Source: a virus. Taken from it: a stretch of 23,751 nt of DNA. The notes below the pieces were generated by a model. The model was not told the origin of the DNA and did not search any database. It saw only the letters and a program-made list of their open reading frames with translations. Positions 3,646-19,596 of the stretch are shown here, piece by piece (the first letter of the stretch is position 1; each line of letters opens with the position of its first letter). Location of the stretch: IMG/VR virus record IMGVR_UViG_3300044612_001434, positions 1-23,751 of that record, one strand, 5' to 3'. The translations under genes were made by a program, and so were the position numbers.

Positions 3646-3733
3646 CCTTCCGCAACTCGGCGTTCTCAGCTTCCAGTTCAGCGATGCGCCAGTTTACTGC
3701 GAATTGAAAATCGCTAGGTGTCATGTAGTTCAT
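3626..3733 (-). CDS. 35-residue coiled-coil mini-protein
   Basis: The ATG at 3733 shares its A with the stop of the preceding gene (TGATG) and follows GGAGAGAAG. The product begins MNYMTPSDFQFAVNWRIAEL and continues with a short Glu/Ala/Leu coil (EAENAELRKDA). It overlaps the next gene by 20 bases in a different frame. Translational coupling on both sides supports expression. It may instead be the N-terminal part of a frameshifted longer coiled-coil protein. Confidence 0.5.
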   Translation of the reverse strand: MNYMTPSDFQFAVNWRIAELEAENAELRKDAARGS

Positions 3734-3870: not shown

Positions 3871-3918
3871 GCCTTCCGGGATGGATGCGGGGTGGAGGTA
3901 AAGCAGAGTTCCGTTCGG

Positions 3919-4128
3919 TCAAGGCGCCATGTTCCCGCGCTTTGTTTTCAGCCAACCGAAGCCAACCTCAAACACCGGCTCCGCATCCTTCATCCACTCC
4001 GCTTCAAGTCGAGCGGCGAAGTTTTGTAGTTCGTCATCGTTGCCCATGAATGTCTTAGTAGGTAGCACATTATTTCTGCGATCTACAAAACACTGATCCG
4101 CTATCAGCCGTACGTCATCTTTGTTCAT
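3919..4128 (-). CDS. Small phage protein, in frame with the downstream ORF across a UGA
   Basis: The ATG at 4128 overlaps the preceding stop (ATGA) and follows GGAGCGG. The product has 69 residues, beginning MNKDDVRLIADQCF and ending KTKRGNMAP. The TGA stop is followed by C, a context known to favour readthrough, and the frame then runs on into the next ORF. Without this stop the protein would be 131 residues with a conventional C-terminal module. Readthrough, a recent inactivating mutation and a sequence error are all possible. Confidence 0.6.
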   Translation of the reverse strand: MNKDDVRLIADQCFVDRRNNVLPTKTFMGNDDELQNFAARLEAEWMKDAEPVFEVGFGWLKTKRGNMAP

Positions 4129-4277
4129 CTCACCGCTCCTATCTTCCAAAGCTCCATCCAGACCTTGTCGGCCTCGCGTACATGGTTGTCCATCGAAGCC
4201 TCGTCGCCCATGTTGCCGGCGAGGTACGCGAGGGTCATCTCGAATCCGTATCGCAGGTTGAGCAGGAAGGTGTTCAT
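4125..4277 (-). CDS. 50-residue phage protein of unknown function
   Basis: The ATG at 4277 overlaps the upstream stop (ATGA) and is preceded by GGAGG(A). Read from this start it is MNTFLLNLRYGFEMTLAYL and on to KVWMELWKIGAVR. The end overlaps the next start by ATGA. The protein is helical and amphipathic without a recognisable domain. Coupled translation on both sides is the main evidence that it is real. Confidence 0.6.
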   Translation of the reverse strand: MNTFLLNLRYGFEMTLAYLAGNMGDEASMDNHVREADKVWMELWKIGAVR

Positions 4278-4516
4278 TTCTTTTCCTCCTTCACCGCCAG
4301 ATATTTCCAGTACGCACGACCCTGTGTACCCATGATGTAGGTGCATGTATCTGCCGTGCTACTCACTGGCTGCATCCCTAATACCTTGGCACAGACCTTG
4401 GGGGCTTGGGTCGCTCGTTCCTCACCCATCCACAGTCCCGCCACGAAACAGGCAACCGACCAGCAGGCAAAGAACACTATCAGATCGGCGTGAAACGGCT
4501 TTTTCGTTGGCTTCAT
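4274..4516 (-). CDS. Small membrane-anchored or secreted phage protein
   Basis: The 80-residue protein starts at 4516 (MKPTKKPFHADL) after AATCGGGAGGATCA. A single hydrophobic segment covers about residues 11-29 (LIVFFACWSVACFVAGLW). A soluble part with two cysteines follows (KVCAKVLGMQ ... ADTCTYIMG). The topology suggests an inner membrane protein with its C-terminus outside the cytoplasm, where the two cysteines could form a disulfide. The function is unknown. Confidence 0.6.
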   Translation of the reverse strand: MKPTKKPFHADLIVFFACWSVACFVAGLWMGEERATQAPKVCAKVLGMQPVSSTADTCTYIMGTQGRAYWKYLAVKEEKK

Positions 4517-4721
4517 TGATCCTCCCGATTTGTCGCACGATGTATTCACGATCCCTCTGCGCCACTGAGTCTAGGATGATGGCTTCGATGCTTTCAGCGG
4601 AACAGAGTTCGCCCTGTCGCGGATAGCCATCTGGTTGTGCCTCTCGCAGTACGCATTGCCGCCGCAGGAATGCGTTGCTATCCTGGCGCATCGTTTCTTG
4701 TTCTGTCCGATTGCGGTACAT
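4422..4721 (-). CDS. Possible overlapping ORF (alternative frame)
   Basis: This 99-codon ORF starts inside the zinc-motif gene and runs 95 bases into the next gene. In its favour, a strong Shine-Dalgarno (GAGGAGG) lies ten bases before its ATG. Its middle part (AESIEAIILDSVAQRDREYI, then QIGRINEANEKA) also looks like a normal helical protein, and it covers the 54-base gap between the two neighbours. Against it, both neighbours are better supported and its C-terminal third looks like an out-of-frame product. It is listed as uncertain. Confidence 0.3.
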   Translation of the reverse strand: MYRNRTEQETMRQDSNAFLRRQCVLREAQPDGYPRQGELCSAESIEAIILDSVAQRDREYIVRQIGRINEANEKAVSRRSDSVLCLLVGCLFRGGTVDG

Positions 4722-4753
4722 TGTGTTTTATCCTCCTCGTAGCTGCGGTTCAT
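4571..4753 (-). CDS. Small Cys/His-rich, probably zinc-binding protein
   Basis: The 60-residue protein starts at 4753 with an ATGA overlap to the nuclease gene. The pattern CTAIGQNKKRCARIATHSC, then YCERH, matches a small zinc-knuckle type seen in phage and bacterial proteins (C-x-A-x(n)-G-x(n)-R-C ... C-x2-H). It probably forms a single metal-binding fold. The tail is basic and serine-rich. The function is unknown. Confidence 0.65.
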   Translation of the reverse strand: MNRSYEEDKTQCTAIGQNKKRCARIATHSCGGNAYCERHNQMAIRDRANSVPLKASKPSS

Positions 4754-5220
4754 AGTTGCTGCACCTTTTCAATGGCGTCCTTGCACCCGTAGGCATAGAT
4801 GTGATGCCATCCGATGTTGCGAAGGTAGATTTCCCATTCGCGTTGATCGTCGCTGATTGTTGAACCTTTGACGCGCTTCATTTCGATGCCTAGTTTCCAG
4901 TCAAGCACTAGCAAATCCGGTACTCCTGCCGTGAGTCCTTCCGCAACTAAATACGCTGCGAGTTTGTAATCCCGCATGGCGGCATTCGGTACGGCGAAGA
5001 TGCGAACCTTCGGATATTGCATCCTGAACCACTTGACGAAGTTCTTTTGTTCTTCGTGTTCCAGTGGGTACTCCGGTGGCTTGCTCGGAGCGCGTGTTTT
5101 AACCTCTTTGGCGGGCGTATCGAAGCCTTCTGGCATTGGCTTACCTGCCGCGAAGCAAAGGCCGCGCAGAGCCTTCTCGTTAAGGCGTATGGTTTCGTTT
5201 AAGGTGAGCTTCTTTTTCAT
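4750..5220 (-). CDS. VRR-NUC domain nuclease
   Basis: The 156-residue protein is read from the ATG at 5220, which follows GAGGAT and overlaps the upstream stop (TGATG). Residues before that in the same frame look non-coding. The VRR-NUC signature is clear: EHEEQKNFVKWF, VPNAAMRDYKLAAYL, the catalytic-type GLTAGVPDLLVL, then GIEMKRVKGSTISDDQREW. The Asp and the Glu-x-Lys are the expected metal-binding and catalytic residues. Phage VRR-NUC proteins are usually stand-alone Holliday junction or structure-specific nucleases in replication and recombination operons. That fits the RecE/RecT/SSB genes upstream in the same operon. Confidence 0.85.
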   Translation of the reverse strand: MKKKLTLNETIRLNEKALRGLCFAAGKPMPEGFDTPAKEVKTRAPSKPPEYPLEHEEQKNFVKWFRMQYPKVRIFAVPNAAMRDYKLAAYLVAEGLTAGVPDLLVLDWKLGIEMKRVKGSTISDDQREWEIYLRNIGWHHIYAYGCKDAIEKVQQL

Positions 5221-5558
5221 CACCATATCCTCGTCCTCAAATCCCCTTCCTGCTGCCGCTTTCTCCAATTCGGCACAGTGCGACCGGTAGGCTTCGGCTT
5301 GCCAACAAACTCTAGCGGCCCAGACAGGCACTTGCCGTCGATATACAGGCTTCCGGTTGTCGTGTCTGCCCATGCGTCGATATGCCCCTCGTCGCGGTAC
5401 AGCAGCACTTCGCACACAAACCGCGTGTGGTGCTGCTTCGGCCCTCGGACGTCGACAGAGTATTCCTTGCTGCCGGTCAAATCTTCCAGTTGCTTCGTAA
5501 TGAGCAGCGGAGTACCGGCGTCGTCGGCGTCGTGCCACTTGCGGAAGGTAGGAGTCAT
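5220..5558 (-). CDS. Phage protein of unknown function (112 aa)
   Basis: The ATG at 5558 overlaps the upstream stop (ATGA). The protein begins MTPTFRKWHDADDAGTPL, has a beta-rich middle with several aromatic residues (YSVDVRG, HHTRFVCEVLLYRD, GSLYIDGKCL) and ends in a basic tail (KPTGRTVPNWRKRQQEGD). No family is recognised. It sits between the nuclease and a small helical gene in a fully coupled operon. Confidence 0.6.
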   Translation of the reverse strand: MTPTFRKWHDADDAGTPLLITKQLEDLTGSKEYSVDVRGPKQHHTRFVCEVLLYRDEGHIDAWADTTTGSLYIDGKCLSGPLEFVGKPKPTGRTVPNWRKRQQEGDLRTRIW

Positions 5559-5764
5559 TTGATTGCGTCCATAGCCGCACGATAAGCCGGATTCTTGACA
5601 GGAACCTTACAAAACATATCGCACACTCGCGCATATTCCGCAGCCAACTCTACGAGTACCCGTAGCGTGTCGCATTGAGCATTGTTGAGCCGCACTATCT
5701 CGGCTTGCTGGTCGGCGGCGAGTTTGGCTAGGGTCGGTTGCGCCCATGTGGCGAAGTCAGCCAT
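5555..5764 (-). CDS. Small helical phage protein
   Basis: The 69-residue protein starts at 5764 (MADFATWAQPTLAKL), eight bases upstream of the previous stop, with GGAGA before it. It is almost entirely helical and has three cysteines. No domain is recognised. The longer frame upstream of this ATG is non-coding in appearance (LKNFTRRLIY) and was excluded. Confidence 0.6.
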   Translation of the reverse strand: MADFATWAQPTLAKLAADQQAEIVRLNNAQCDTLRVLVELAAEYARVCDMFCKVPVKNPAYRAAMDAIK

Positions 5765-5945
5765 GTAAATTAGTCTCCGCGTAAAGTTCTTCAGCAAACC
5801 GCCGAACCATTGCCAGATTCGTTCGCAAGTCGATCAGTTCGATCGACTGATCCCGATACACCTCGATGTGCCGAGAGTTCGAGGCGCGAAGTTCCGCGTT
5901 CTCGATCTCAAGGCGGGTGAAGGCTAGTTGCTCTTTTCGGTTCAT
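5757..5945 (-). CDS. Short coiled-coil protein next to SSB
   Basis: The 62-residue protein begins MNRKEQLAFTRLEIENAELR. It is a single predicted coiled coil followed by a helix (LRTNLAMVRRFAEELYAE). The start shares an A with the SSB stop (TGATG). Small coiled-coil ORFs of this kind are frequent in phage early operons. The role is unknown. Confidence 0.55.
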   Translation of the reverse strand: MNRKEQLAFTRLEIENAELRASNSRHIEVYRDQSIELIDLRTNLAMVRRFAEELYAETNLHG

Positions 5946-6337
5946 CAGAACGCTTCGTCATCATCAACAACGTAAGCATTCGCCTTCGCCGCTGAATGCT
6001 CTGTAACGGGGGATGCTTCCTGCTGCGATGCCTCCGACTTGCCAAGCAGCGTCAGGTCATTCACGCGCACATCAAGCGATGCACCCTGGCCGCCATCCTT
6101 CTTCTCGTACATGCGCAGGGTAGCCTCCCCGCTGATGCCGACCAACTGCCCCTTGTTGAGATACGGCAACACGGACTCGCCGCGCTTGCCCCACATCTGA
6201 CAGTTCGCCCAGGTTGTCACAGCCTTGTCGCCAAAGCCCGACTTAACGGCTACGGAGAACGATACGAGGCTATTGTCGCCAACAAACTTTTGCTCTGCTG
6301 ACCGTCCGAGATTGCCGGTGAAATTCCAGTTATTCAT
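5945..6337 (-). CDS. ssb: Single-stranded DNA-binding protein
   Basis: The 130-residue protein has an N-terminal OB fold: MNNWNFTGNLGRSAE, SLVSFSVAVKSGFGDK, TTWANCQMWGKRGESVLPYL, KGQLVGISGEATLRMYEKKDG. A variable linker and the acidic tip DDDEAF follow. The tip corresponds to the DDDIPF-type C-terminus that recruits partner proteins. SSB coats ssDNA during replication and recombination. Here it lies with the RecT-like and RecE-like genes, consistent with phage homologous recombination. The start overlaps the upstream TAA (TAATG). Confidence 0.93.
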   Translation of the reverse strand: MNNWNFTGNLGRSAEQKFVGDNSLVSFSVAVKSGFGDKAVTTWANCQMWGKRGESVLPYLNKGQLVGISGEATLRMYEKKDGGQGASLDVRVNDLTLLGKSEASQQEASPVTEHSAAKANAYVVDDDEAF

Positions 6338-6573
6338 TAACGCACCCCACTGTTAAAAAAGTCATCGGCCAAGTCGACCATGTTTGCATCAATTGTGTAT
6401 ACGCCCATCAACGAGTTCGGCGTCTTTTCGAGTTGCGTCCTGAATAGCGCCGTTGTCACTTTAGTCGCCACCCAACTGCCGCCATACGTCACGAACACTG
6501 CCAATGGCACTGGCGAGGACATCAGTTTGCGCTCAAGCGTTTGCGCGGCTTGTCTGCTGATTGCGTTAGTCAT
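6337..6573 (-). CDS. Small protein between recombination genes and SSB, unknown
   Basis: The 78-residue protein starts at 6573 (MTNAISRQAAQTLERKL), eight bases before the preceding stop. A hydrophobic beta-like stretch follows (PVPLAVFVTYGGSWVATK), then an acidic end (IDANMVDLADDFF). The longer upstream frame is a shadow of the Cys-rich gene. Its coupled position next to ssb suggests a replication or recombination accessory role, but no family is recognised. Confidence 0.6.
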   Translation of the reverse strand: MTNAISRQAAQTLERKLMSSPVPLAVFVTYGGSWVATKVTTALFRTQLEKTPNSLMGVYTIDANMVDLADDFFNSGVR

Positions 6574-6787
6574 CGAACTTGGCCGCATCGTTGCGCTCGT
6601 CGGCACGGTCGGCCTCCCAATCCTCGCGTCCATCGTCGTTGCGCTCGACTCCTGAGCCACCGCAACTGCCGCACCGCGTTCCATCGTACATGCCCTCGCC
6701 GCTACCGCTGCACTGTGGGCAGTAGCCGGGTTCGTTGTCGTCAGTCTCGTCGCCGCATTCGGCGTCTGTTCCATCGTCGGAAATCAT
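6566..6787 (-). CDS. Small acidic protein with DnaJ-type zinc motif
   Basis: The ATG at 6787 follows GGGGAG by nine bases; a TTG at 6793 would overlap the upstream stop. The 73-residue product carries two CxxCxGxG-type motifs (CPQCSGSGEG and CGSCGGSGVE), as in the DnaJ zinc-binding domain. It is otherwise extremely acidic (Asp/Glu-rich flanks). DnaJ uses four such motifs for two zinc sites, so this would be one site without a J domain. Small proteins of this kind occur in phages. A chaperone-like or nucleic acid mimic role is speculation. Confidence 0.65.
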   Translation of the reverse strand: MISDDGTDAECGDETDDNEPGYCPQCSGSGEGMYDGTRCGSCGGSGVERNDDGREDWEADRADERNDAAKFDD

Positions 6788-6789
6788 GC

Positions 6790-7683
6790 TCAAATCTCCC
6801 CACCATCAGGATTCGCCGCCATCTCCGCAGCCTGAGCCTTGGCTTGTGCAGCGGAAATCTTGAGGGACTTCAGCAACTCCCGCGCCTCGACAACATCCGA
6901 CTCCATCCACTCGGACAGAGGCTTGCCGTACTCTGCTTCCAGCGCCGGGAGCGTGTAGCCTACGCTTGCGAAGGCGTGCAACACCTTGCCCTTGGTCACG
7001 TCGTCGACGGGACGGTCGGGGCCGATTCCGGTAAGGTCGCCTTCAAGCGGATTTCCGCTGATGGTGCCGCGCACATGGGTAGCCTCGCCTTCAATCACAT
7101 TCAGGTCAGGCTTGTGTGTCTTGCCTTGAGCCTTGGCTGCGGCTTGCTTCACCTTCTCAGGCATGGGCGTCGGTGCTGGTTGCGGAGTAACGTCCTTCTC
7201 CGGTGCTGGTGTGAAATCCTGCACTTCTTCCGGCGTATAGATTCCGACAGATACGCCTGGATACACGGTGCGGATGCCCTCGCTGATGCACCGTGCGCGG
7301 AGCATGGCGCGGGGATACTGCTTCCATGTCGGGTTCTTGGTAAGCCCCGCCTTGGTCGCCATGTCGAACGTCCATTGAATCGAAACCTCGCCGCCAGACG
7401 GATGCGAGAACACGCCGGTAACGTCGGCGTCGGTGTAGGACTTCCAGCTAACCTTGCCGCCTGCGTTCTGGAACCGCGCAAGCATGGCATCAGCCTTGAG
7501 TGCAGGGCGGCCTTGTATGACGTGGTACTCCATTGCTGCCCGCGCAGGATGCAAGCCCTCTGACTGCGCGACGAGCATCAGGGCGATAGCCTGCTCCGGT
7601 GTTTTCATTCCGAACAGGCCGGACTTGGCGACAGCGGTTGCCATCTGTTGTATGTCTTGGAACGGTACGAGTGCGGTGTTCAT
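6790..7683 (-). CDS. RecT-like single-strand annealing protein
   Basis: The 297-residue protein starts at 7683 (MNTALVPFQDIQQMATAV) in an ATGA overlap with the exonuclease. Residues about 15-155 match the RecT/Redbeta pattern: TPEQAIALMLVAQSEGLHPA, YHVIQGRPALKADAMLARF, the IQWTFDMATKAGL block, and KQYPRAMLRARCISEGIRTVYP. A Pro/Lys linker and a helical C-terminal part follow. Such proteins anneal complementary single strands produced by a 5'-3' exonuclease. The RecE-like gene directly upstream completes the pair. Membership in the RecT superfamily is likely; the exact family needs a profile search. Confidence 0.8.
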   Translation of the reverse strand: MNTALVPFQDIQQMATAVAKSGLFGMKTPEQAIALMLVAQSEGLHPARAAMEYHVIQGRPALKADAMLARFQNAGGKVSWKSYTDADVTGVFSHPSGGEVSIQWTFDMATKAGLTKNPTWKQYPRAMLRARCISEGIRTVYPGVSVGIYTPEEVQDFTPAPEKDVTPQPAPTPMPEKVKQAAAKAQGKTHKPDLNVIEGEATHVRGTISGNPLEGDLTGIGPDRPVDDVTKGKVLHAFASVGYTLPALEAEYGKPLSEWMESDVVEARELLKSLKISAAQAKAQAAEMAANPDGGEI

Positions 7684-8462
7684 ACATCCTCCTTCATAGC
7701 CCACGTTGGCAAGCCCAACGTAACGATTTCTTCCTGGTAGCCGGGGAACATTTGCGCCGTGGTGCAGTCCTTCCAGTAGTCGAGCGCACGGCGAACCTCG
7801 CGCCATCCTTGATCCAGAGCCAGAGCGTCCAACTCATACACTGCAACGGCGAACGGTGCCTTTTTCTCGACGGCAACGAAGTAGAACTTCTCCGCTCCGG
7901 TGCCTGCCATGTAGTGCGCCGCCTGCCGATGATAGCCGTAAGCAGCAATGCTACGGGCGAATCCTGCCGGTGATGCGTCCTCGGTGGATTTCAGATCAAC
8001 GATGTACGGCGTTCCGTTTGATTGGAAGTCAGGGCGGCACTTGCATTCAAGCCCGGTATCCTTGTCCGTCCAGAAGTATGATGATTCGGATACGCCATCC
8101 GTCAGGAGTGACGATGCTGTAGGGTTCCGAAGGATAGACACGCACATACCTTGAATGGTGTCCCAATCCGTCGCGCTGATGATCGTCTGCCCTGAGTCCA
8201 GCATGGCCTGCTTTGCCGCCTTGCCTTCCTTGGTGCGCCCGTCCATGTCGAACACGCTGTAGGACTCGGCGAAGCGTACCGGCTCCAGCACCGCCATGTG
8301 GAAGGCAGTACCGAATGCCATTGCTGGAGTCTGCTCGTCGGTGGCACCGTCCAGGTAGGCGCGAGCATGTGCCGGTGACTTGAGTATCTTGCTGATGAGC
8401 GAGTTGCTGACAGCTTCGTGAGCGTGATACTCGCTGGCCGGCATGTCGAGGATGGTTTTCAT
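7680..8462 (-). CDS. RecE-like PD-(D/E)XK exonuclease
   Basis: The 260-residue protein starts at 8462 (MKTILDMPASEYHAH), overlapping the previous stop (ATGA). The N-terminal VSNSLISKILKSPAHARAYL and MAFGTAFHMAVLEP (His55) are typical of RecE-like exonucleases. The catalytic core reads KCRPDF (Asp145), then YIVDLKST (Asp156, Lys158), followed by a helix with YGYHRQAAHYM. These residues bind metal in the PD-(D/E)XK fold. The enzyme would resect double-strand ends to give 3' overhangs for the RecT-like protein encoded next. Confidence 0.85.
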   Translation of the reverse strand: MKTILDMPASEYHAHEAVSNSLISKILKSPAHARAYLDGATDEQTPAMAFGTAFHMAVLEPVRFAESYSVFDMDGRTKEGKAAKQAMLDSGQTIISATDWDTIQGMCVSILRNPTASSLLTDGVSESSYFWTDKDTGLECKCRPDFQSNGTPYIVDLKSTEDASPAGFARSIAAYGYHRQAAHYMAGTGAEKFYFVAVEKKAPFAVAVYELDALALDQGWREVRRALDYWKDCTTAQMFPGYQEEIVTLGLPTWAMKEDV

Positions 8463-8758
8463 GCGAAGTGCCTCCACTTATACTGCCCGACGAGGAAACG
8501 GACTTCGTTCGCAGCGGCGAGGATTTCCGGCTCGTAGTACATCAGCGCGATAGCTGTGGTGCGACCATCGTGCCAGTCGCCCAATTGGTTGTTAGGATCG
8601 GCGCGGCAATCCTTGAGACTGGATGCGGCGATGATTTGCGCCATTCGGTGTGGGTCTGGCCTGTAGTTGCTCATGCTCCATTGTTCCTCGGCCAGCGTAT
8701 CGGGTTGCTGATTATCCTCGTCCTGCTGCTCTTGCCACATTTCAGCACTTCTGCCCAT
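8459..8758 (-). CDS. Phage protein of unknown function (99 aa)
   Basis: The product begins MGRSAEMWQEQQDEDNQQPD, with a disordered acidic N-terminus and a more ordered part (PHRMAQIIAASSLKDCRAD, TTAIALMYYEPEILAAANEV). A second possible start is the Met of MSNYRPDPHRM. The gene is coupled on both sides and directly precedes the RecE-like gene. No family is recognised. Confidence 0.55.
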   Translation of the reverse strand: MGRSAEMWQEQQDEDNQQPDTLAEEQWSMSNYRPDPHRMAQIIAASSLKDCRADPNNQLGDWHDGRTTAIALMYYEPEILAAANEVRFLVGQYKWRHFA

Positions 8759-8927
8759 GATGAACTTCCTTGAACTGGATGACAGGAAACTTCGTCATCG
8801 CTTTAGCAGCGTTCCAGCACTCGTCATGGGTGCCGAACGTCTGCCCTACTACGATAAGATTTGCTACGCCATCCATCGCCGGATGCTGCTGCTCTACTGT
8901 TGCTTGGTACTGCGGTACAGGTTTCAT
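8742..8927 (-). CDS. Small phage protein with strong ribosome binding site
   Basis: The 61-residue protein (MKPVPQYQATVEQQHPAMD, then a hydrophobic NLIVVGQTF strand) has a full consensus AAGGAGGT six bases before its ATG. It is the first gene after a 61-base gap. It could lead a strongly translated sub-block of the operon that includes the exonuclease, annealing protein and SSB. The function is unknown. Confidence 0.6.
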   Translation of the reverse strand: MKPVPQYQATVEQQHPAMDGVANLIVVGQTFGTHDECWNAAKAMTKFPVIQFKEVHHGQKC

Positions 8928-8959
8928 TGTGCTACCTCCTTGTGTGTAATTCTCCTGCT

Positions 8960-8980
8960 GAAACTTACACGAAACTTACA
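8960..8980. repeat. Operator-like direct repeat GAAACTTACA x2
   Basis: GAAACTTACA occurs at 8960-8969 and again at 8971-8980, an 11-base period close to one helical turn. It lies in the only gap between 3340 and 9294, just upstream (on the minus strand) of the 8927 start. Spacing and position suit a protein-binding site or a leader element, but no protein is identified. Confidence 0.4.
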
Positions 8981-8988
8981 ACGCGCAA

Positions 8989-9294
8989 TTAAATTGATCC
9001 GACACGCGGCATGGATTTCCGCAGTCCCGCCAGAATCTTCGACCATCCGATGCGCTCTTTCCATTCAACGCCATCGGCGACCACGCGGTAGCAGTCGACG
9101 CGATCAGTCCGGTACAGGTCGAGCGTGTGAATCTTCTCGCCGAAGTCGAAATCACGGATGATGATCTGCCGACGAAGTTCTGGTAGCGGTTGCGGATATT
9201 CCGGCGCCGGTCCGTCCAAGCGCACACGCTCCCGGCCTCGTCGCATGGCTGCGAGGCGGGTCTGTGCGGCTTTTTTGGTCAGTCGATAGGTCAT
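8989..9294 (-). CDS. Phage protein of unknown function, basic N-terminus
   Basis: The 101-residue protein begins MTYRLTKKAAQTRLAAMRRG, a strongly basic helix. An ordered part follows (PELRRQIIIRDFDFGEKIHTL, TDRVDCYRVVADGVEWKERIG) and it ends KSMPRVGSI. The ATG at 9294 follows AAGGTACACT. It is the first gene downstream of the cassette array in the direction of transcription. The basic N-terminus would suit nucleic acid binding; no family is recognised. Confidence 0.6.
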   Translation of the reverse strand: MTYRLTKKAAQTRLAAMRRGRERVRLDGPAPEYPQPLPELRRQIIIRDFDFGEKIHTLDLYRTDRVDCYRVVADGVEWKERIGWSKILAGLRKSMPRVGSI

Positions 9295-9324
9295 AGTGTA
9301 CCTTGCACGGTAGGTTCACTTAAC

Positions 9325-9334
9325 GTTAGCAAAC
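9325..9334 (+). repeat. Left boundary half site (GTTAGC) of the cassette array
   Basis: GTTAGCAAAC matches the reverse complement of the left outer box of the first attC (GTTCGCTAAC, 9580-9589) at 9 of 10 bases. No full attC hairpin is evident to its left; there is only a short TACC/GGTA pairing at 9299-9312. It may be an attI-like primary site or the remnant of a degraded attC. The stop codon of the first cassette ORF lies inside it. Confidence 0.5.
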
Positions 9335-9565
9335 ATAAAAGTGGCTCTCCTCGCACACTTCAAACACCTGCATCCCCATCACTTCCATTGGTTGCGGTTG
9401 TTCTCCGAAATTGCAGGTAACATAGGCACAAGCGCTGCGCTGCAAGTCAATAAACTCGCCGTATCCGACATAAATCCGCGTCGGCTTTCGTCCTGTCTGG
9501 CTGTAATATCTCCGGTATGCGTCGTTGATCGCTTTGAGAACATCGCCTTCTTTTGCTGTCATCAT
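9326..9565 (-). CDS. Cassette ORF 1: unknown phage/cassette protein
   Basis: The 79-residue protein begins MMTAKEGDVLKAINDAYRRY after GGAGAAGGCAAG. It continues RKPTRIYVGYGEFIDLQRS and ends VMGMQVFEVCEESHFYVC. The alternating hydrophobic pattern suggests a small alpha/beta fold. Its stop lies in the GTTAGC box on the left, and its start is 15 bases from the outer box of the next attC, so it fills one cassette unit exactly. No function is recognised. Confidence 0.65.
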   Translation of the reverse strand: MMTAKEGDVLKAINDAYRRYYSQTGRKPTRIYVGYGEFIDLQRSACAYVTCNFGEQPQPMEVMGMQVFEVCEESHFYVC

Positions 9566-9579
9566 CTTGCCTTCTCCTT

Positions 9580-9640
9580 GTTCGCTAACCCGTCAATCCA
9601 CGCGGACGGCTTTCAGCCGCCGGTGATTTTTGCGTTCGGC
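9580..9640 (+). repeat. attC-like site 1
   Basis: The left outer box is GCTAAC (9584-9589) and the right outer box GTTCGGC (9634-9640). The inner arms pair CACGCGG-A-CGGCT with AGCCGCCGGTG around TTTC, and the A has no partner. The right box extended to 9645 (GTTCGGCGTCAC) is the exact reverse complement of the left box of site 2. This is the shortest site of the set. The 3' end of cassette ORF 2 runs into its stem. Confidence 0.7.
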
Positions 9641-9909
9641 GTCACTATCACCGCGCCGCTTATCCCGTCCCATGCAGCCATTTCGTAGCCGCTTGCACTC
9701 TTCTCTATCTCGCCATCTACGATGTCCCGGAAGTGCGCGGCGATATTCCAAACCTTGTATGCGGGGAACCTGAAGTGGCGCAGCATCTGCCCGTCCTTGA
9801 AGATTTCAACGAGCGCATCACAGGCATAGGGTGCCTTCAGGTAGCTTGCCCGTACCGTGTATCCCCTGTCAGGCTCTTTGCTCTCAAACGCCAGCTTGTC
9901 GATTTCCAT
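9613..9909 (-). CDS. Cassette ORF 2: unknown protein
   Basis: The 98-residue protein starts at 9909 (MEIDKLAFESKEPDRGYTV) with GGAGGAAGGC before the ATG. It is predicted to be alpha/beta (FRFPAYKVWNIAAHFRDIV, MAAWDGISGAVIVTPNAK). The last eight or so codons and the TGA lie within attC-like site 1, as in compact integron cassettes where coding sequence and recombination site abut or overlap. Nothing resembling a known domain is seen. Confidence 0.65.
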   Translation of the reverse strand: MEIDKLAFESKEPDRGYTVRASYLKAPYACDALVEIFKDGQMLRHFRFPAYKVWNIAAHFRDIVDGEIEKSASGYEMAAWDGISGAVIVTPNAKITGG

Positions 9910-9927
9910 GCCTTCCTCCGTTTGTCC

Positions 9928-10003
9928 GTGACGCCGAACCCATCATTCCACAGGACGCCCCGCGATAAAGCTGCGGGTCGCCTGTGAATTCAGGCGTTAT
10001 GGC
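9928..10003 (+). repeat. attC-like site 2
   Basis: The left box is GCCGAAC (9933-9939) and the right box GTTATGGC (9996-10003). The inner arms CACAGG-A-CGCCCCGC and GCGGGTCGCCTGTG pair imperfectly, with the A extrahelical. The flank CATTCCACAGG ... CCTGTGAATTCAGGC is close to the classical CATTCAAGCCG ... CGGCTTAATTCAGGC of known attC sites. The left flank (12 bases) matches site 1 and the right (10 bases) matches site 3, both as perfect reverse complements. Confidence 0.8.
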
Positions 10004-10006
10004 GCA

Positions 10007-10186
10007 TCAGTCGTAGTCCTCGAAGCCCACTTGCGGCGTCAGACCCATCTGCTTTGCGGTTTCGCCAGTGTTGTAATACACGGGGCGCAGCGGGTCACTC
10101 AGTTTTGCCGTCTTCGGCAGCTTCTCCAGTTCGGCAATCAGCGCCCCGACTGTCTTGCACTTTTTCAGCTTCTCTTGCTTGCTCAT
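10007..10186 (-). CDS. Cassette ORF 3: 59-residue protein
   Basis: The ATG at 10186 is preceded by GGGAGTGATGAC. The product begins MSKQEKLKKCKTVGALIAEL and ends QMGLTPQVGFEDYD. It has a basic helix, then a LEKLPKTAKLSDPLRPVYYN loop region. The stop TGA lies two bases outside the right outer box of site 2, and the start is 21 bases from the left outer box of site 3. No family is recognised. The very short coding length fits a minimal cassette. Confidence 0.6.
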   Translation of the reverse strand: MSKQEKLKKCKTVGALIAELEKLPKTAKLSDPLRPVYYNTGETAKQMGLTPQVGFEDYD

Positions 10187-10207
10187 GTCATCACTCCCTA
10201 AGTGTCA

Positions 10208-10281
10208 GCGCCATAACCCGGCGCTCAAGCGGGACGCGCCGCGATAAGGCCGCGTCGCGCCCCTTAGCTATGCGTTCGGCC
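10208..10281 (+). repeat. attC-like site 3
   Basis: The left box is GCCATAAC (10210-10217) and the right box GTTCGGCC (10274-10281). The left arm CTCAAGCGGG-A-CGCGCCGCG pairs with CGCGTCGCGCCCCTT, and the A is unpaired. CTCAAGCGGGAC is nearly identical to the left arm of Vibrio cholerae repeats as I recall them (CTCAAGAGGGAC). The left box is a perfect ten-base partner of the right box of site 2. Confidence 0.78.
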
Positions 10282-10909
10282 CCACAAAGTCGCGGCACTT
10301 GATCTTGGTGATGATCCGATGACCGTTGCGAGTCTTCAACTCCGTTTTAGGCCGCGCCACAATCCCTTCGGCTTGGAAGTCGCCCCACGTCGAGGTGATG
10401 CCAGCCTTTGCCGCCCTGATTGCATCGTGCAGCGTGCCCTCGCCGATGATCGGAACAACATCAAGTCCGAGCTTCTGCGCCGTGTCTTCAACATCAGCGC
10501 GCTGTAGCCACCAGGGGCCGACGCCGACATCAAACAGCACGAAATCCTGATCCGCCCTGTAGTTGCCGCCTCCCTTTTGAATCTTCGCGCCGTAGCCCTC
10601 GCCGTATAGGCACGCGCCATCTGGAAACATCTCGTGCATCTTTTCGGCTTGCGGCAGGAACCGCTCGTTCAACCTTGTCACCAGTTGCGCAGGGATGCTG
10701 GCAGCGGCGGTTCTTCCCCCGTACGTCACCGCGCCATTGCCGTCGATCATCACGCGGATGTTGGTGCCGTCCACCTTCTCGGTGAAGACCCACGTGTTGT
10801 TGGCAAGGTACTCAAGCTCAGGCAGCGTCCACTGCCCTTCAAGCAGCGTCTTGCCGTTGTGTTCCATCTCGCGCTTGAACAGCGTCTGAATCTTGTGGTA
10901 CTCGTTCAT
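10268..10909 (-). CDS. Cassette ORF 4: RNA ligase (nucleotidyltransferase superfamily)
   Basis: The 213-residue protein starts at 10909 (MNEYHKIQTLFKREMEHNG) after GGAGAAAGAA. Ligase motifs appear in order: motif I FTEKVDGTN (Lys45 would be AMP-linked), then YGGRT, motif III LYGEGYGAKI and FVLFDVG, motif IV EGIVARP and motif V IITKIKCRDF. Such ATP-dependent RNA ligases seal RNA breaks, for example in tRNAs cut by host defence nucleases; that use here is an inference. The TAG stop lies inside attC-like site 3, and the leader begins at site 4, so the gene occupies one cassette. It is the only cassette gene with a recognised function. Confidence 0.87.
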   Translation of the reverse strand: MNEYHKIQTLFKREMEHNGKTLLEGQWTLPELEYLANNTWVFTEKVDGTNIRVMIDGNGAVTYGGRTAAASIPAQLVTRLNERFLPQAEKMHEMFPDGACLYGEGYGAKIQKGGGNYRADQDFVLFDVGVGPWWLQRADVEDTAQKLGLDVVPIIGEGTLHDAIRAAKAGITSTWGDFQAEGIVARPKTELKTRNGHRIITKIKCRDFVGPNA

Positions 10910-10926
10910 TTCTTTCTCCGTAAGTT

Positions 10927-10999
10927 GTGTGGTCGAACCCATCATTCCACCGGACCTGCGCGAAAAGCCGCGCAGGCCGGTGAATTCAGACGTTGGGCC
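10927..10999 (+). repeat. attC-like site 4 (best preserved)
   Basis: The left box is GGTCGAAC (10931-10938) and the right box GTTGGGCC (10992-10999). The stem has 14 base pairs: CACCGG at 10948-10953 and CCTGCGCG at 10955-10962 pair with CGCGCAGG at 10969-10976 and CCGGTG at 10977-10982. A10954 is the only bulge and the loop is AAAAGC. The single extrahelical base and the GAATTCAGAC between inner and outer boxes on the right follow the attC plan closely. Confidence 0.82.
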
Positions 11000-11329
11000 T
11001 CACAAGCACGGCCTTACCTCTCCAAAGTAGTCGTCGCATAACTTCGTCACCTCACCCGAAATGTCGCTTGAGAACCGCCCGTTGCCCATGACGGACTCGA
11101 TCTTTGCAAGAAGGTGCATCGCTGGATTGAACAGCCGCGATGCATACTCTGCTTGCGAGTCCATCGCGGCTTTCTTGGCGAGCTTGGACAGCCCTGCTTT
11201 TTTCGCGCAAGCGATCCGCTTGGCGGTTGTCTCTGGTGTTGAAAACGCTTTTCTGCGCATATCTGGTTTCCCTTTCTTCGTTAGTAGGTGTGCATTGCTT
11301 CCGTCAAAAAGCTCGTTCATCGTTGCCAT
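11000..11329 (-). CDS. Cassette ORF 5: basic helical protein of unknown function
   Basis: The ATG at 11329 is seven bases after AGGAGG, so it is preferred over ATGs at 11335 and 11356. The 109-residue product is MATMNELFDGSNAHLLTKKG, then RRKAFSTPETTAKRIACAKK and a Lys/Ala-rich helix (LSKLAKKAAMDSQAEYAS). It ends YFGEVRPCL. The basic middle could bind nucleic acid. The TGA stop overlaps the right outer box of attC-like site 4. No domain is recognised. Confidence 0.65.
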   Translation of the reverse strand: MATMNELFDGSNAHLLTKKGKPDMRRKAFSTPETTAKRIACAKKAGLSKLAKKAAMDSQAEYASRLFNPAMHLLAKIESVMGNGRFSSDISGEVTKLCDDYFGEVRPCL

Positions 11330-11346
11330 TTTCATTCCTCCTGAGT

Positions 11347-11422
11347 GTGCGGCCAAACAGGGCCATCGACACGGACGCCCGGCGATGAAGCCGCCGTGCG
11401 CCGGTCATGTTCGACGTTAAAC
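11347..11422 (+). repeat. attC-like site 5
   Basis: The left box is GGCCAAAC (11351-11358) and the right box GTTAAAC (11416-11422). The left arm GACACGG-A-CGCCCGGCG pairs imperfectly with CGCCGTGCGCCGGTC, and the A is again unpaired. The left outer box matches the right box of site 4 at 10 of 12 positions. The stop codon of the next ORF (TAA) lies inside the right box. Confidence 0.7.
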
Positions 11423-11617
11423 CGCATCACACTTCCCCGCGCTCTCCACATTGATGCCGCCCGACACAAGCCGCGCAGCTTCGGACGTGCTAGTAACGAC
11501 GGCGCACTTAAACTGCGACTCCGCAACGTGGCGCATTGCGCTTGCGGCATTGGTGGCTTCGATCAGGCGAGTTTTCTTGGTGGCGATTTCTTCGACGAGG
11601 TACAGGCGGACTTTCAT
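11417..11617 (-). CDS. First gene of the leftward operon: small phage protein (66 aa)
   Basis: The ATG at 11617 follows AAAGGAACCGCACC. The product begins MKVRLYLVEEIATKKTRLIE, continues ATNAASAMRHVAESQFKCAV and ends GGINVESAGKCDAV. This resembles a widespread small phage/plasmid protein that opens with a beta strand pair followed by an A-x-A-x2-HVA helix; its function is unknown to me. It lies 34 bases from the predicted leftward start point. Its stop is in the right box of attC-like site 5, but no matching outer box is seen upstream of its start. Confidence 0.65.
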   Translation of the reverse strand: MKVRLYLVEEIATKKTRLIEATNAASAMRHVAESQFKCAVVTSTSEAARLVSGGINVESAGKCDAV

Positions 11618-11644
11618 GGTGCGGTTCCTTTTTCGATTGGTTAG

Positions 11645-11673
11645 TTGACAGTGACGGATTCTACCCATATCAT
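11645..11673 (+). promoter_or_regulatory. Rightward promoter of the primase operon (sigma70 type)
   Basis: TTGACA (11645-11650), a 17-base spacer and TATCAT (11668-11673) form a near-consensus promoter. Start of transcription near 11680 leaves a leader of about 24 bases before the ATG at 11704, without an evident Shine-Dalgarno. The GTTGACA here and the TGTCAAC at 11680-11686 form inverted arms 29 bases apart. Confidence 0.75.
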
Positions 11674-11685
11674 TCGCCGTGTCAA
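11658..11685 (-). promoter_or_regulatory. Leftward early promoter (sigma70 type)
   Basis: On the minus strand TTGACA (11680-11685) and TAGAAT (11658-11663) are separated by 16 bases. The -35 box is perfect and the -10 box matches 5 of 6. It would start transcription near 11651 and drive the whole leftward operon, beginning with the cassette array. It overlaps the rightward promoter almost completely. Confidence 0.7.
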
Positions 11686-11703
11686 CACCTAATTGCAAAC
11701 CAA

Positions 11704-11862
11704 ATGAAAACTAAACAGATATATCGGCAACTACTGGATGCGAGCAAGTCGCGTAAGAAAGAGGCGCGCAAACTACGCAAGCAGGGGCTTACATGGACGG
11801 CCATCGGGGTGCATCTTGGGGTTACTCGCCAGCGCGCACAGCAGATAGGAAAGGAGAAATGA
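11704..11862 (+). CDS. Small helix-turn-helix DNA-binding protein
   Basis: The 52-residue protein begins MKTKQIYRQLLDASKSRKKE. A C-terminal helix-turn-helix follows (KLRKQGLTWTAIGVHLGVTR, then QRAQQIGKEK). It resembles region 4 of sigma70 factors (LTxxxIGxxLGVTRxRxxQI). It is the first gene of the rightward operon and sits directly at the divergent promoter pair, so it is a candidate autoregulator or early switch protein. Its stop overlaps the primase start (ATGA). The target is not known. Confidence 0.75.
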   Translation: MKTKQIYRQLLDASKSRKKEARKLRKQGLTWTAIGVHLGVTRQRAQQIGKEK

Positions 11863-14402
11863 CCGACGATCTTGACGCCCTCAAGCGATCCGTGGACATG
11901 GTCACATTGCTGACCGGCTACGGCGTCGAACTAAAGCAGCGCGGAAACGAATACGACTGCCTTTGCATATTCCACGACGAATCGAAGCCGAGTATGCAGG
12001 TCTATATAAAGGACGGAGTACAAAAATGTCATTGCAAGAGTTGCGGGCGCGGCGGCACCGTCATTGATGTTGTCATGGAGATGGACGGTTGCGACGAAGG
12101 CGAAGCGATCAAGCGTTTGCGCGCCAACGGATTCCAGCGCGACGATACCCGCATCAAAGCCGAAGCGCCAATCAAAGCCGCGACGTGGCAGCATCAGGTG
12201 GCACCGGAACCGTTGACCGACTTCAGCATAAAAAACCTTACCTACGTCGCGCACTGGACGTACCTGGACGCTGATGGCGCACTACTCGGCTACGTGGTGC
12301 GCTACGTCAAGCCCGGTGGCGACAAGGACTATCGCCCGTGGAGTTATGGCAGCTACTCCACCAACGTATCCGCGAAGTGGATGAGCAAGGCATGGACGCA
12401 TGGACGGCGACCGATATACGGCCTCGATCTGCTGACCGCGAATCCATCAGCAAAGGTAGTCATCAGCGAAGGCGAGAAAGCCGCCGATGCCTCGCGGCAC
12501 TATTGGGCCTCGCGCATAGGCATAGCATGGCCTGGTGGTGCCAATGCCATAGCCGGAGTAGATTGGACGCCACTGGCAGGGCGTGATGTATTGTTGATAC
12601 CTGATGCCGACCTTACCGGAGTCGGTGAGGCAGCAATGTTCAAGGTGGCTAGCTACCTGCTCCCCCTTGGGTGTAAAGTTAGCATCCTCGATACAAGCGA
12701 CAAGCCTAACAAGTGGGATGTTGCCGATGCTTTATCGGAGGGGATGAGCAAAGAAGCATTGATGGCATGGGCCGCGCCGAGGGTATCGAAACTCGGCAGC
12801 AGAGAACTCGAAAAGCAAAGGCTTGAGGAGGAAAAAAAAACTATGCAATCCGCGCAAGCCGGCGAGCCTGAGCCGATGAATCCGCTCCCAATGGAGGACT
12901 GGTCTGAATACGATCTGCCACCCATAGACGACGATATAGAGCCGCAGCATATACCTCTAACCATTGATGTGCAGCCGACAGAGATAGCCGATGCGCCTGC
13001 GATAAAGCCGGCGAAGGTTGCAAGGCATACGGCTATCAAAGCCGACGAGGAACCCGATGGCCCGGAATTCAGCGATCCAGCGATGGCGGGATATTGGTTA
13101 CAGAATCAAGGAAAGGACTGGGTGTTCGTTACGGAATGGGATAAATGGATGCACTGGAACGGCAGCATTTGGGAAAAGGATAGGACTAACTCGGCGCGTA
13201 AGGTAATCCTTCGGCACCTTGTAAGTGTCAGTGGGTGGGATATGTCCCTGCGACTATCCGATACAGCGCGGCGCGCATTGTGCGACCTGCCGAAAATCGA
13301 GAAGGTGGAGAAGGTTGCCAGAATCCTGAAATGCACAGTCCCCGAAACATTCGACTCGAACATATTTCTGTTAAGCACTCCGGGCGGAGTTGTTGATCTT
13401 CAAACTGCAACGCTATCCGATTCAAGTCCAGATCACTACATAACCAAAAGCACCAAAGTCACGCCAGACTTTTCAAGGTGCGAAGAAAAAGACATCCCCA
13501 TGTTTATGTCCGTCCTTGAACGCGCCCACGGTGGCCCGGAGATGGTGGAATACCTGCGCCGATGGTGCTATTACGTTTTGACAGGGGATACTCGTTTCGA
13601 GTGTTTCCTGTTTGTCTATGGCCCTGGCGGTAGTGGCAAGAGTACATTTATCCACGTCCTGCGCGAGCTTGCCGGCGATTATTCCGTAGCCGCAGCTATG
13701 CAGACATTCTCAGAATCAAAGGGCGCGGAACACTCAACCGAGATTGCCGGCCTTGCCGGGGCGCGATTGGTAACGGCGACCGAAACTGAGAAAAATTCAC
13801 GCTGGAATGAATCCCGCATCAAGACGCTTACCGGCAGGGATCGTATATCAGCCAGATTCATGCGATGCGATTATTTCCAGTTCGACCCTCAATTCAAGCT
13901 GGCGATTGCAGGCAACCACAAACCCCGCCTGCGCTCGGTAGGTGAGGAAATGCGCCGACGTATCCATCTAGTCAATTTCCCATCATCATTCAAGGATGGC
14001 GAGAAGATAGAGAACATCCGCGAATTGCTTGACGCTGAAATGCCTGGAATACTTGCATGGGCAATCCGTGGTGGCGAAGCATGGCGCAGCAAAGGTATGT
14101 CCCGGCCTGCTGCGGTGGATGCTGCAATTGCTGATTACTTGAATGCAGAGGACACGCTAGGCGCATGGCTAGAAGAATGCTGCACGGTGGCGCATGGCAA
14201 ACGGTGCCGTTCGATTGATGCCTATACGAGTTACTCTAAATTCGTTGAATCTGCCGGAGAGGGAGTGCAAGCCCAGAAGGGATTTGTGCAGGAGCTTGAA
14301 CAGCGAGGATTTGAGCGTGTCAAATCTGGAGGTATTATGCACATTACCGGACTTGATATAGTGCCTGCTGCTGCGCCTGCATGGGCCGAACGTGAATTCT
14401 GA
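11859..14402 (+). CDS. Primase-helicase (CHC2 zinc finger, Toprim, SF3/D5-type helicase)
   Basis: The 847-residue protein starts at the ATG at 11859 after AAAGGAGAA. The N-terminal zinc-binding domain has C36-x2-H39 and C59-x2-C62 (CIFH, CKSC). A Toprim-like domain (about residues 190-300) contains VISEGEKAADA and LLIPDAD. After an acidic proline-rich linker (about 325-410) comes the D5/P4-type helicase. Its Walker A is GPGGSGKST (588-596), the Walker B region ARLVTATETE, motif C FKLAIAGNHKP and arginine finger RRRIHLVNF. Such proteins prime and unwind DNA at the phage origin. No DNA polymerase gene is seen in the window. Confidence 0.9.
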   Translation: MTDDLDALKRSVDMVTLLTGYGVELKQRGNEYDCLCIFHDESKPSMQVYIKDGVQKCHCKSCGRGGTVIDVVMEMDGCDEGEAIKRLRANGFQRDDTRIKAEAPIKAATWQHQVAPEPLTDFSIKNLTYVAHWTYLDADGALLGYVVRYVKPGGDKDYRPWSYGSYSTNVSAKWMSKAWTHGRRPIYGLDLLTANPSAKVVISEGEKAADASRHYWASRIGIAWPGGANAIAGVDWTPLAGRDVLLIPDADLTGVGEAAMFKVASYLLPLGCKVSILDTSDKPNKWDVADALSEGMSKEALMAWAAPRVSKLGSRELEKQRLEEEKKTMQSAQAGEPEPMNPLPMEDWSEYDLPPIDDDIEPQHIPLTIDVQPTEIADAPAIKPAKVARHTAIKADEEPDGPEFSDPAMAGYWLQNQGKDWVFVTEWDKWMHWNGSIWEKDRTNSARKVILRHLVSVSGWDMSLRLSDTARRALCDLPKIEKVEKVARILKCTVPETFDSNIFLLSTPGGVVDLQTATLSDSSPDHYITKSTKVTPDFSRCEEKDIPMFMSVLERAHGGPEMVEYLRRWCYYVLTGDTRFECFLFVYGPGGSGKSTFIHVLRELAGDYSVAAAMQTFSESKGAEHSTEIAGLAGARLVTATETEKNSRWNESRIKTLTGRDRISARFMRCDYFQFDPQFKLAIAGNHKPRLRSVGEEMRRRIHLVNFPSSFKDGEKIENIRELLDAEMPGILAWAIRGGEAWRSKGMSRPAAVDAAIADYLNAEDTLGAWLEECCTVAHGKRCRSIDAYTSYSKFVESAGEGVQAQKGFVQELEQRGFERVKSGGIMHITGLDIVPAAAPAWAEREF

Positions 14403-16610: not shown

Positions 16611-16781
16611 TCAATCCTTCCCGATAGAGTTACGTTCAGCAGCAGCCAGTACCCGCGCCAGTGTCAGCAAAGCCACAGGCACGCCCCTGGACCGGCAGAA
16701 TTGCAGCGTCGGCAGTCTTCCCCAGCGGCGATAGTTACGGCCAGCACGGGCGGCTGCGGTGGCGATAGGATGTAAGGTCAT
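16611..16781 (-). CDS. 56-residue basic phage protein
   Basis: The ATG at 16781 overlaps the stop of the methyltransferase fusion (ATGA). The product is MTLHPIATAAARAGRNYRRW, then GRLPTLQFCRSRGVPVALLT, and ends AAAERNSIGKD. It is rich in Arg and Ala with a hydrophobic helix in the second half. Coupled translation supports it; no family is recognised. Confidence 0.6.
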   Translation of the reverse strand: MTLHPIATAAARAGRNYRRWGRLPTLQFCRSRGVPVALLTLARVLAAAERNSIGKD

Positions 16782-18508
16782 GATTGAATAACCACGATTG
16801 CAGCGTTGACAGATGTTCCTGAAGACTTGAAAGAATCAAGCGGCAAATCTTCCCAAGTTCCGAGACAGGATAACGCCTCGCGTTGGCGCGGACCACCGGC
16901 ACAGATAGCCACAAGCCGTCCACCGGGTTTGAGCATGGACGCAGCGTGCTTGATGTGCTTGATGTCGTCGCCGTTCGCAAAAGGCGGATTCATAACGATG
17001 CGGTCGACCGGCCAGTTGCCGCGCGAAAACTGTAGGAAATCACAGCAGTGCACCGTCGACAGTGCGTACTCTTCCCGCAGTCTGTCTGCAAGTCGCTGAT
17101 TGATTTCAACTGCTACCACGGCGCCCGCTTTGTCGTCGTTCATGATCGCTTGCATGATGTTGCCTGTCCCTGCCGACGGCTCAAGAACGGTCATCCCGCG
17201 CCCGATGTCGGCGAGTTCAACCAAGCGCGCCGCCAGCTTGGGCGGAGTCGGGAACAGTTGAGGCGCGGAAACCACCTGCACGCCTTGCTTGAGTTGTTCG
17301 CGCATGGCTTCGATTGCCGGCATGGTTTCCTGTTTCTGCGTTTGTTCTTTTGGCGGTTCTGTATCTTTCGGAGTTTCCGCAAGCCAAAAGCCCGCGCCGT
17401 TCTCACTTTCCACAAGCCGGCCAGATTCCCGTGCCTCGTCAACTTGTGCCTTGCTCATAACTTCGCGGATTTTGTCCATCGGTTCATTATGATTGAACAC
17501 GCGCCCGCCGTCGTTCCATTGGTGTCGAATCGTAACAGTGATGCGGTTTACCTTGAAAATGTAAGCCCAACCCCCGCGCGGTCCCCACAAGCTGCGCACA
17601 GCGCCGCCGATTTCAGGCTTAACCTTGTCGGTTTCGATGCCTCCGGCCTCGCCAAGCATGGCGCGCTCGTAAGCGATGCGGTTCACGTAATGGTCAAGCC
17701 AGCGCAAGCAATGCGGAATGTATCGGCTGTGCGATGCTACGGCGATTTCGCGGGCCTGTTCCGCCGTGATTCTGCCGCCGTCAAGCGCGCTCCAAAGGCT
17801 TTGCATTCCCTCGTAAGCGTGCACGCCTTCTGCTGCGGGATATTCGGAGAGCAAAAAGCATTTGCTTATGCGGTCATAATTTGCGATGCCTTTAGCGCGA
17901 TCGAATGTAAGCCCTTCGCGCTGCCACATATCGAGGAACTTTTGCGCTTCTGCCAAGTTGCGCTCCTGTTTCCGCTTGTCGGCTTCCAGTCCTTTGATGC
18001 GACGAGCGCGAACCGCTGGAAGCTCTTTATACTTTGCAGCGCGGACAGCACCAGCAGCGCGCGACTTCCAATATTCCGCCGTATCCCACATTTTGACAGC
18101 CTTACGCATTCCGTTTGTGATGCGTTCCGCATCCTTGCGTGCGTGCCGTTCGGAATGATGCCCGATCAGGATAGGTTGACCAAGCGGGATATTGTCGCAA
18201 ATGGCAGACACGGCTTTATGTGCCAATTCCGCCCTTTGTGCATTGTTGCTGCTGTATTCGTCAAAGCGGTCAGCGCGGGCTTCTGCGCGGTCGACCAGGC
18301 TTGTGTCTTCGTCGCCCACCTCGCCGCACATTTCGATAAGCAAGTCCTCCCGCGCCGGCGTCCACATCGGCGCAACAAATAGCCCTTGCTTAGGTGCCCA
18401 TTTGAAGCCGGCAGCCTTTACGCGCTCATAGTCGGATTGATCGAGTTTGAAAGCCGGATAAAGCCTCAGCTTGTTGTCTTCCGGTGAGTAGGTTGCTGTA
18501 TGTTCCAT
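16778..18508 (-). CDS. DUF3560 protein fused to a DNA methyltransferase domain
   Basis: The 576-residue protein starts at 18508 (MEHTATYSPEDNKLRLYPAF) after AAGGGGTACGAAA. The first ~280 residues fit DUF3560: VKAAGFKWAPKQGLFVAPMW, then PLGQPILIGHHSERHARKDA and the coiled LEADKRKQERNLAEAQK. The C-terminal domain (about 415-576) is a SAM-dependent methyltransferase, with motif I EPSAGTG at 443-449, a VVAVEINQRLADRL strand-helix, catalytic NPPF at 507-510 and a KPGGRLVAI strand. NPPF points to N6-adenine (or N4-cytosine) amino-methylation. Plasmids and phages often carry such fusions, perhaps to modify their DNA against restriction; that role is an inference. No cognate nuclease is adjacent. Confidence 0.85.
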   Translation of the reverse strand: MEHTATYSPEDNKLRLYPAFKLDQSDYERVKAAGFKWAPKQGLFVAPMWTPAREDLLIEMCGEVGDEDTSLVDRAEARADRFDEYSSNNAQRAELAHKAVSAICDNIPLGQPILIGHHSERHARKDAERITNGMRKAVKMWDTAEYWKSRAAGAVRAAKYKELPAVRARRIKGLEADKRKQERNLAEAQKFLDMWQREGLTFDRAKGIANYDRISKCFLLSEYPAAEGVHAYEGMQSLWSALDGGRITAEQAREIAVASHSRYIPHCLRWLDHYVNRIAYERAMLGEAGGIETDKVKPEIGGAVRSLWGPRGGWAYIFKVNRITVTIRHQWNDGGRVFNHNEPMDKIREVMSKAQVDEARESGRLVESENGAGFWLAETPKDTEPPKEQTQKQETMPAIEAMREQLKQGVQVVSAPQLFPTPPKLAARLVELADIGRGMTVLEPSAGTGNIMQAIMNDDKAGAVVAVEINQRLADRLREEYALSTVHCCDFLQFSRGNWPVDRIVMNPPFANGDDIKHIKHAASMLKPGGRLVAICAGGPRQREALSCLGTWEDLPLDSFKSSGTSVNAAIVVIQS

Positions 18509-19119: not shown

Positions 19120-19141
19120 ACTTGGGGAGTCTTGGGGAGCG

Positions 19142-19199
19142 TAGATCAGATTAGGGAGTGTTAGGGAGTGTAGATCAGATTAGGGAGTGTTAGGGAGCG
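19142..19199 (+). repeat. Tandem 29-base repeat (two copies)
   Basis: The unit begins TAGATCAGATTAGGGAGTG and ends TTAGGGAG(T/C)G. Copy one is 19142-19170 and copy two 19171-19199, differing at one base. Each contains two GGGAG words. They resemble iterons in layout, though two copies are few. Confidence 0.8.
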
Positions 19200-19596
19200 T
19201 GATACGGGTAACGTATGGTGCTTGATGCAAGGCGGCGCTGTACCGAGTTCGACCTACATGTAGGCGCTCTATCCCCTCTCCAGTAATCGCCGCACCCTGG
19301 GCACGCTATGGCATCGGAGTGGCATCGGCGGCCTGCAAGCTGGCGCGCATCCTTGGCATGTGTCGGAGACGATGCCGCTACCTGGGAGCTGGCCTGCGTG
19401 ATCCGATACCGGCAAGCTGCCGATACCTAGTCGCGTATCCCTGGGCGATGCGATGCTCGCATGGTCGTCGGCTTGGTTGGTTAGTGCTCACTGCGCATGG
19501 TGCAGCGCAGCGTTAGCTCGATGGGGGGGGGCTTTGAGTCGGCTGGGGCGTGAGTTTTAGCCATACCCATCCCCTCGCAAAACGGCTATTCAAAAG

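Follow-up and report, generated by a model that had tools for sequence, protein, structure and literature searches.

The window, the whole 23,751-b stretch of DNA that was analysed, derives from an IMG/VR virus record and carries two gene groups that read away from a short promoter region. On the minus strand, the leftward operon region (3340–11617) comprises a 66-aa gene, an RNA ligase, a DUF3799 nuclease, RecT, SSB and small genes, and no other sigma70 site with at least 10 of 12 consensus matches was found within it. The 66-aa gene is the first to be read (11417–11617), has the Shine-Dalgarno sequence AAGGAA and belongs to no known family; in every lineage compared, its orthologue is found on the left side of the promoters. 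On the plus strand, the first gene (11704–11862) lacks a clear Shine-Dalgarno sequence and encodes a 52-aa helix-turn-helix (HTH) protein resembling region 4 of sigma70. Its stop codon overlaps the start of the primase-helicase gene (11859–14402; CHC2 zinc finger, D5_N and DUF5906) in the ATGA at 11859–11862. The gene content thus supports the placement given in a preliminary description of this DNA, between a recombination operon on the left and a replication operon on the right.

Two promoters, each matching the sigma70 consensus at 11 of 12 positions, are interlocked in a 41-bp core (11645–11685). The rightward promoter (11645–11673, plus strand) consists of TTGACA at 11645–11650, a 17-bp spacer and TATCAT at 11668–11673, and the leftward promoter (11658–11685, minus strand) of TTGACA at 11685–11680, a 16-bp spacer and TAGAAT at 11663–11658. 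The overlapping pair with two perfect -35 boxes, as first described, can therefore be read directly from the letters; the coordinate 11680 assigned at that time to the leftward TTGACA is the low end of its box. The two -10 boxes lie 4 bp apart, and the nearest genes begin 27 bp to the left and 18 bp to the right of the core. Counting about 7 nt past each -10 box, transcription is predicted to start at ~11679–11681 on the right (nearest purines G11679 and G11681) and at ~11651–11652 on the left (A on the minus strand), so that the starts are ~29 bp apart and each coincides with the -35 box of the opposite promoter or with its margin, in line with the original claim. Because the predicted transcripts run apart from these starts and do not overlap, "overlapping divergent" is a more accurate term than the earlier "face-to-face", and the pair is not convergent. 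Opposite-strand consensus sites that share DNA place the pair in the overlapping divergent sigma70 class on sequence, scores and conservation, with exclusion as a prediction. Both would be strong promoters of the host sigma70 type, for which we infer activity and steric exclusion.

The inverted repeat GTTGACA/TGTCAAC pointed out in the preliminary description is present, but it amounts to the two -35 boxes and offers no independent evidence of an operator; its seventh base varies (ATTGACA in the relative L022). Two further candidates were rejected. A 13-nt imperfect inverted repeat around the promoters (11630–11642/11698–11710) occurs at about the number estimated for chance and was not seen in diverged relatives, and a palindrome (CGAAT..ATTCG) whose centre lies between the -10 boxes is imperfect, with a half-site spacing unlike that of a usual HTH dimer site. 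No operator was identified in the window or by comparison of L022 and L027, whose leaders are unlike outside the core though both encode a Cro protein.

The two promoters are the only sigma70 sites with 11 of 12 matches in the window, and the same pair is likewise the sole pair of such sites in G001 and in G006, a complete circular phage. When the whole window was shuffled with dinucleotides preserved, a divergent pair with starts 7–40 bp apart appeared in 0/400 shuffles at 11/12 on both sides and in 2/400 at 10/12; the fixed-geometry pattern appeared in none of 100 shuffles, even with three mismatches allowed. A scan of all viral contigs for the interlocked geometry returned 19 stretches, compared with 3 for a control spacing, and after removal of 6 kin stretches and duplicates ~11 independent stretches remained against the 3 controls. 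This excess is suggestive only, since one of the control matches also sits between divergent ORFs. In a scan of genomes, the geometry gave 88 matches, mostly in AT-rich genomes, with no clear enrichment; 4 of the 80 examined lay between divergent ORFs with Shine-Dalgarno-like sites. The same interlocked geometry was observed between outward-reading ORFs in four unrelated viral contigs (L017, L023, L024 and L028), and the gene to its right in L023 resembles a small HTH protein. The arrangement may be recurrent in phages.

Relatives of the locus were drawn from viral contigs. The region is identical in G001, G002 and G003, and diverged versions were found in G004 (L022), G005/G006 (L027/L029) and G009 (L131). 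Both promoters are kept at the same place in L022 and L027/L029, and the geometry of the window, L022 and L027 is identical (TTGACA, 7, ATTnTA, 4, TAnnAT, 6, TGTCAA). Pairwise, the cores share 34–36 of 41 positions, while the left gene next to them is 51–59% identical at its third codon positions. Across the three lineages 32 of the 41 core positions are invariant, against a fraction of 0.41 at third positions of the primase gene (P 1.2e-6, in a test on a small sample of three sequences whose sites are not strictly independent). Invariant positions account for 21 of 24 in the hexamers and 11 of 17 elsewhere in the core, and include the CCCA separating the -10 boxes and the TCGCC past the rightward -10 box; the conservation outside the hexamers is modest (P 0.04, or 0.006 with four-fold sites). 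The -10 boxes themselves vary (TATCAT/TAGAAT, TAGAAT/TACAAT), and every promoter nevertheless remains at 11/12. We take this conservation as good evidence that both promoters are in use. That just one of them functions, the second being a fortuitous resemblance, is very improbable: a consensus match is in itself no proof of activity, but both promoters stay at 11/12 in three lineages despite base changes, the shuffles returned no such pair, real genes begin 27 bp and 18 bp from the core on its left and right, and the leftward promoter is kept in L131 even though the rightward one lies elsewhere.

The stretch 11415–13041 is at least 95% identical to G001, G002 and G003, and the C-terminal helicase part differs in G003. 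The primase-helicase gene loses its resemblance to G003, G004, G005, G006 and L131 at nearly one and the same base, at 13037–13041, which suggests a recurrent recombination boundary between the primase and helicase domains. Since near-identity extends over 11415–13041 and similarity stops at its right end, the left gene, the promoters, the HTH gene and the primase N-terminus appear to move as one block.

L131 has the same gene order with separate promoters. Next to an orthologous left gene, a leftward promoter (TTGACT-16-CATAAT) occupies the orthologous place, and the rightward promoter (TAGACA-17-TATTCT) lies downstream, so that the two stand back to back without common elements. Hence overlap is not obligatory for this gene order. 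Its HTH protein belongs to the same family as that of the window and yet stands beside non-overlapping promoters; on this comparison the type of HTH does not strictly go with overlap of the promoters. L131 and its overlap-bearing kin provide a built-in comparison for what the overlap is for. In L131 (204–242) the HTH gene begins ~3 nt past the predicted transcription start, so that its mRNA may have almost no leader; the HTH gene of the window is similarly devoid of a clear Shine-Dalgarno sequence.

In every lineage the first rightward slot holds one small HTH gene, a position that argues for an autoregulator. The gene is of a sigma-region-4-like type in the window group and L131 and of the P22_Cro type in G004, G005 and G006, and the two types never occurred together in one of the genomes examined. 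PF14549 (P22_Cro) scored over its cut-off in the latter three genomes and gave no match over it in the window, and the best solved relatives of these P22_Cro-type proteins include the Cro proteins of N15, Xylella and P22. For the window's 52-aa protein, the Pfam matches to HTH_23 (E 0.002) and Sigma70_r4 (E 0.035) were both below cut-off. Against PF04545 it reached 14 bits (cut-off 24.1), compared with 31 bits (E 1.8e-7) for the L131 homologue, which passes. The two proteins are homologous (pairwise E 1e-7). An AlphaFold model of the 52-aa protein showed a three-helix HTH with pLDDT ~90 over the HTH, and Foldseek returned mostly sigma region 4, with E above 1 and from a two-sequence alignment, which makes it a lead only. 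Membership in KorA/TrfB (PF16509) was rejected, as the score of 14 bits (E 0.06) falls short of the 26.7 required, and a similarity to RelI came down to a weak HTH match. In G004 (L022), a 160-aa ORF with the look, by eye, of an HNH-type homing endonuclease is inserted in the rightward operon, after the Cro-like gene and ahead of the primase gene, and G005/G006 contain a different ORF at this place.

The preliminary description had named the HTH gene as the likely regulator. In its favour, a small DNA-binding gene always comes first on the right; against it, the tie to the 52-residue protein in particular is weakened by the occurrence of the same core with the unrelated P22-Cro and by the same-family HTH beside the separate promoters of L131. 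It is quite unlikely that the 52-aa protein is a free-standing version of the -35-recognition domain of sigma70, acting on the adjacent perfect TTGACA boxes or on the polymerase itself. If so, the phage would shut down the two early operons by imitating the very host factor that recognizes their promoters, and Cro would substitute for it at the same interlocked promoters in sister phages.

Searches for tyrosine integrase (PF00589), resolvase (PF00239), HTH_3 (PF01381) and S24 repressor (PF00717) gave no match in G000, G001, G004, G005 and G006, most of which are fragments; G006 carries a 127-b terminal direct repeat and was taken as a complete circular phage. The CI-type repressor and integrase that go with a lambdoid CI/Cro immunity switch were thus not found in these five genomes. 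For this reason the phage looks lytic, and the locus looks like a lytic early promoter rather than a lysis-lysogeny switch. No DNA similarity to named phages was detected.

We favour, as moderately probable, a lytic-phage early region in which the interlocked pair makes polymerases compete and the HTH protein feeds back jointly on both operons. This reading combines promoters, geometry, conservation and an HTH slot taken from the sequence with presumed activity, exclusion and feedback. RNA polymerase would occupy the 41 bp in one orientation at a time, so that the two operons would share a single polymerase-loading site and competition would set their expression ratio; leftward firing would serve the recombination operon and rightward firing the regulator/primase operon. 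The DNA-binding protein from the first slot would then lower both operons together, in a Cro-like manner and with no toggling. In an E. coli bidirectional promoter with one improved -35 box, polymerase competition suppressed the opposite transcript (PMC12825309), and since both -35 boxes are perfect here, strong competition is to be expected. In a toy simulation, exclusion without feedback gave memoryless alternation, with equally strong exclusive promoters sharing the firing, and weakening one promoter raised the other when loading was fast. Exclusion alone would therefore make a divider and not a switch. The earlier proposal of a switch between the operons is not supported on this account, and both sets of genes are plausibly required by a lytic phage while it replicates.

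A true toggle, in which blocking of one promoter by the HTH protein frees the other to alternate between replication and recombination expression, as at RK2 trfAp/trbAp, is in our view unlikely. The HTH gene does adjoin the promoters, strong mutual exclusion is expected, logic of this kind is known from RK2 and pLS20, and the HTH protein has a weak Pfam likeness to KorA (E 0.06). That match is far below cut-off, however, both operons are plausibly needed simultaneously, and HTH type and overlap are not strictly linked among relatives. Joint shut-off is preferred over the toggle because an HTH or Cro protein bound within 41 bp would probably cover and silence both promoters. Cro-family proteins act on nearby operators, and the first-slot HTH gene of all lineages is typical of autoregulators; both points speak against a constitutive, compact bidirectional promoter whose fixed left/right ratio is set by polymerase competition while the HTH protein acts elsewhere. 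We regard this alternative as unlikely, although the core is conserved across different HTH types, no operator was found, and bidirectional promoters of E. coli have been reported to show competition (PMC12825309).

Several known systems resemble the locus, each with differences. Lambdoid Cro control (P22, N15) is similar in that relatives of the window carry a P22_Cro-family protein first in the replication operon; it differs in that no CI partner or integrase was detected in the genomes searched, the promoters are interlocked and not spaced, and the window itself has no Cro. Overlapping divergent promoters were reportedly described by Bertrand et al. 1983 (cited in PMC11686294) for Tn10 tetA/tetR, where one regulator represses both promoters; unlike the early region of a phage, that system belongs to a transposon, confers resistance and responds to a drug as inducer. 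The Pc/Pr pair of the Bacillus subtilis plasmid pLS20 (PMC4207663) shares overlapping divergent promoters, polymerase competition and an adjacent HTH (Xre) regulator. There, however, the -10 and -35 boxes of one promoter coincide with the -35 and -10 boxes of the opposite one, a weak promoter that depends on activation is part of the pair, and the operator is known to be looped (PMC4207663); the promoters of the window are both near consensus, with -10 boxes side by side and each -35 box on the other's start. In RK2/RP4 trfAp/trbAp (PMC7314908), a replication promoter faces another under KorA/KorB control and the pair is termed face-to-face, but the strong promoter inhibits through opposing elongating complexes, whereas the transcripts of the window are predicted not to overlap.

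At E. coli bidirectional promoters, opposite polymerases are also exclusive and can drive divergent mRNAs (PMC12825309, PMC10268837). Their -10 elements are shared or overlapping and their starts 7–25 bp apart, as in the definition of Warman and Grainger, outside which the window falls with starts ~29 bp apart and -10 boxes separated by 4 bp; the five that were tested had low basal activity, compared with two perfect -35 boxes here. The locus is hence a variant on known arrangements, with two near-consensus promoters, a start distance just beyond the 7–25-bp definition and an exchangeable regulator slot. It offers a natural, conserved overlapping divergent promoter with a perfect -35 box in both halves, the regime in which the E. 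coli work predicts strong competition but in which the native promoters assayed there lacked the strength to show it. Unrelated small DNA-binding proteins swap in the regulator slot while the promoter core stays, and distant relatives keep the layout although the surrounding genes have changed.

Elsewhere in the window, a 576-aa fusion of DUF3560 and a methyltransferase-like domain is encoded at 16778–18508 on the minus strand. Tandem 29-bp repeats (GGGAGTGTTAGGGAGCGTAGATCAGATTA, 2.6 copies) lie at 19125–19200 and a DnaA-box-like sequence (TTATCCACA) at 19597–19605, shortly before the terminase genes; together they may mark an origin of replication or a regulatory region. L147 (MW202867.1) contains, without annotation, a distant homologue of the 66-aa left gene, ~800 bp downstream of a gene annotated as sigma-70 and on the same strand.
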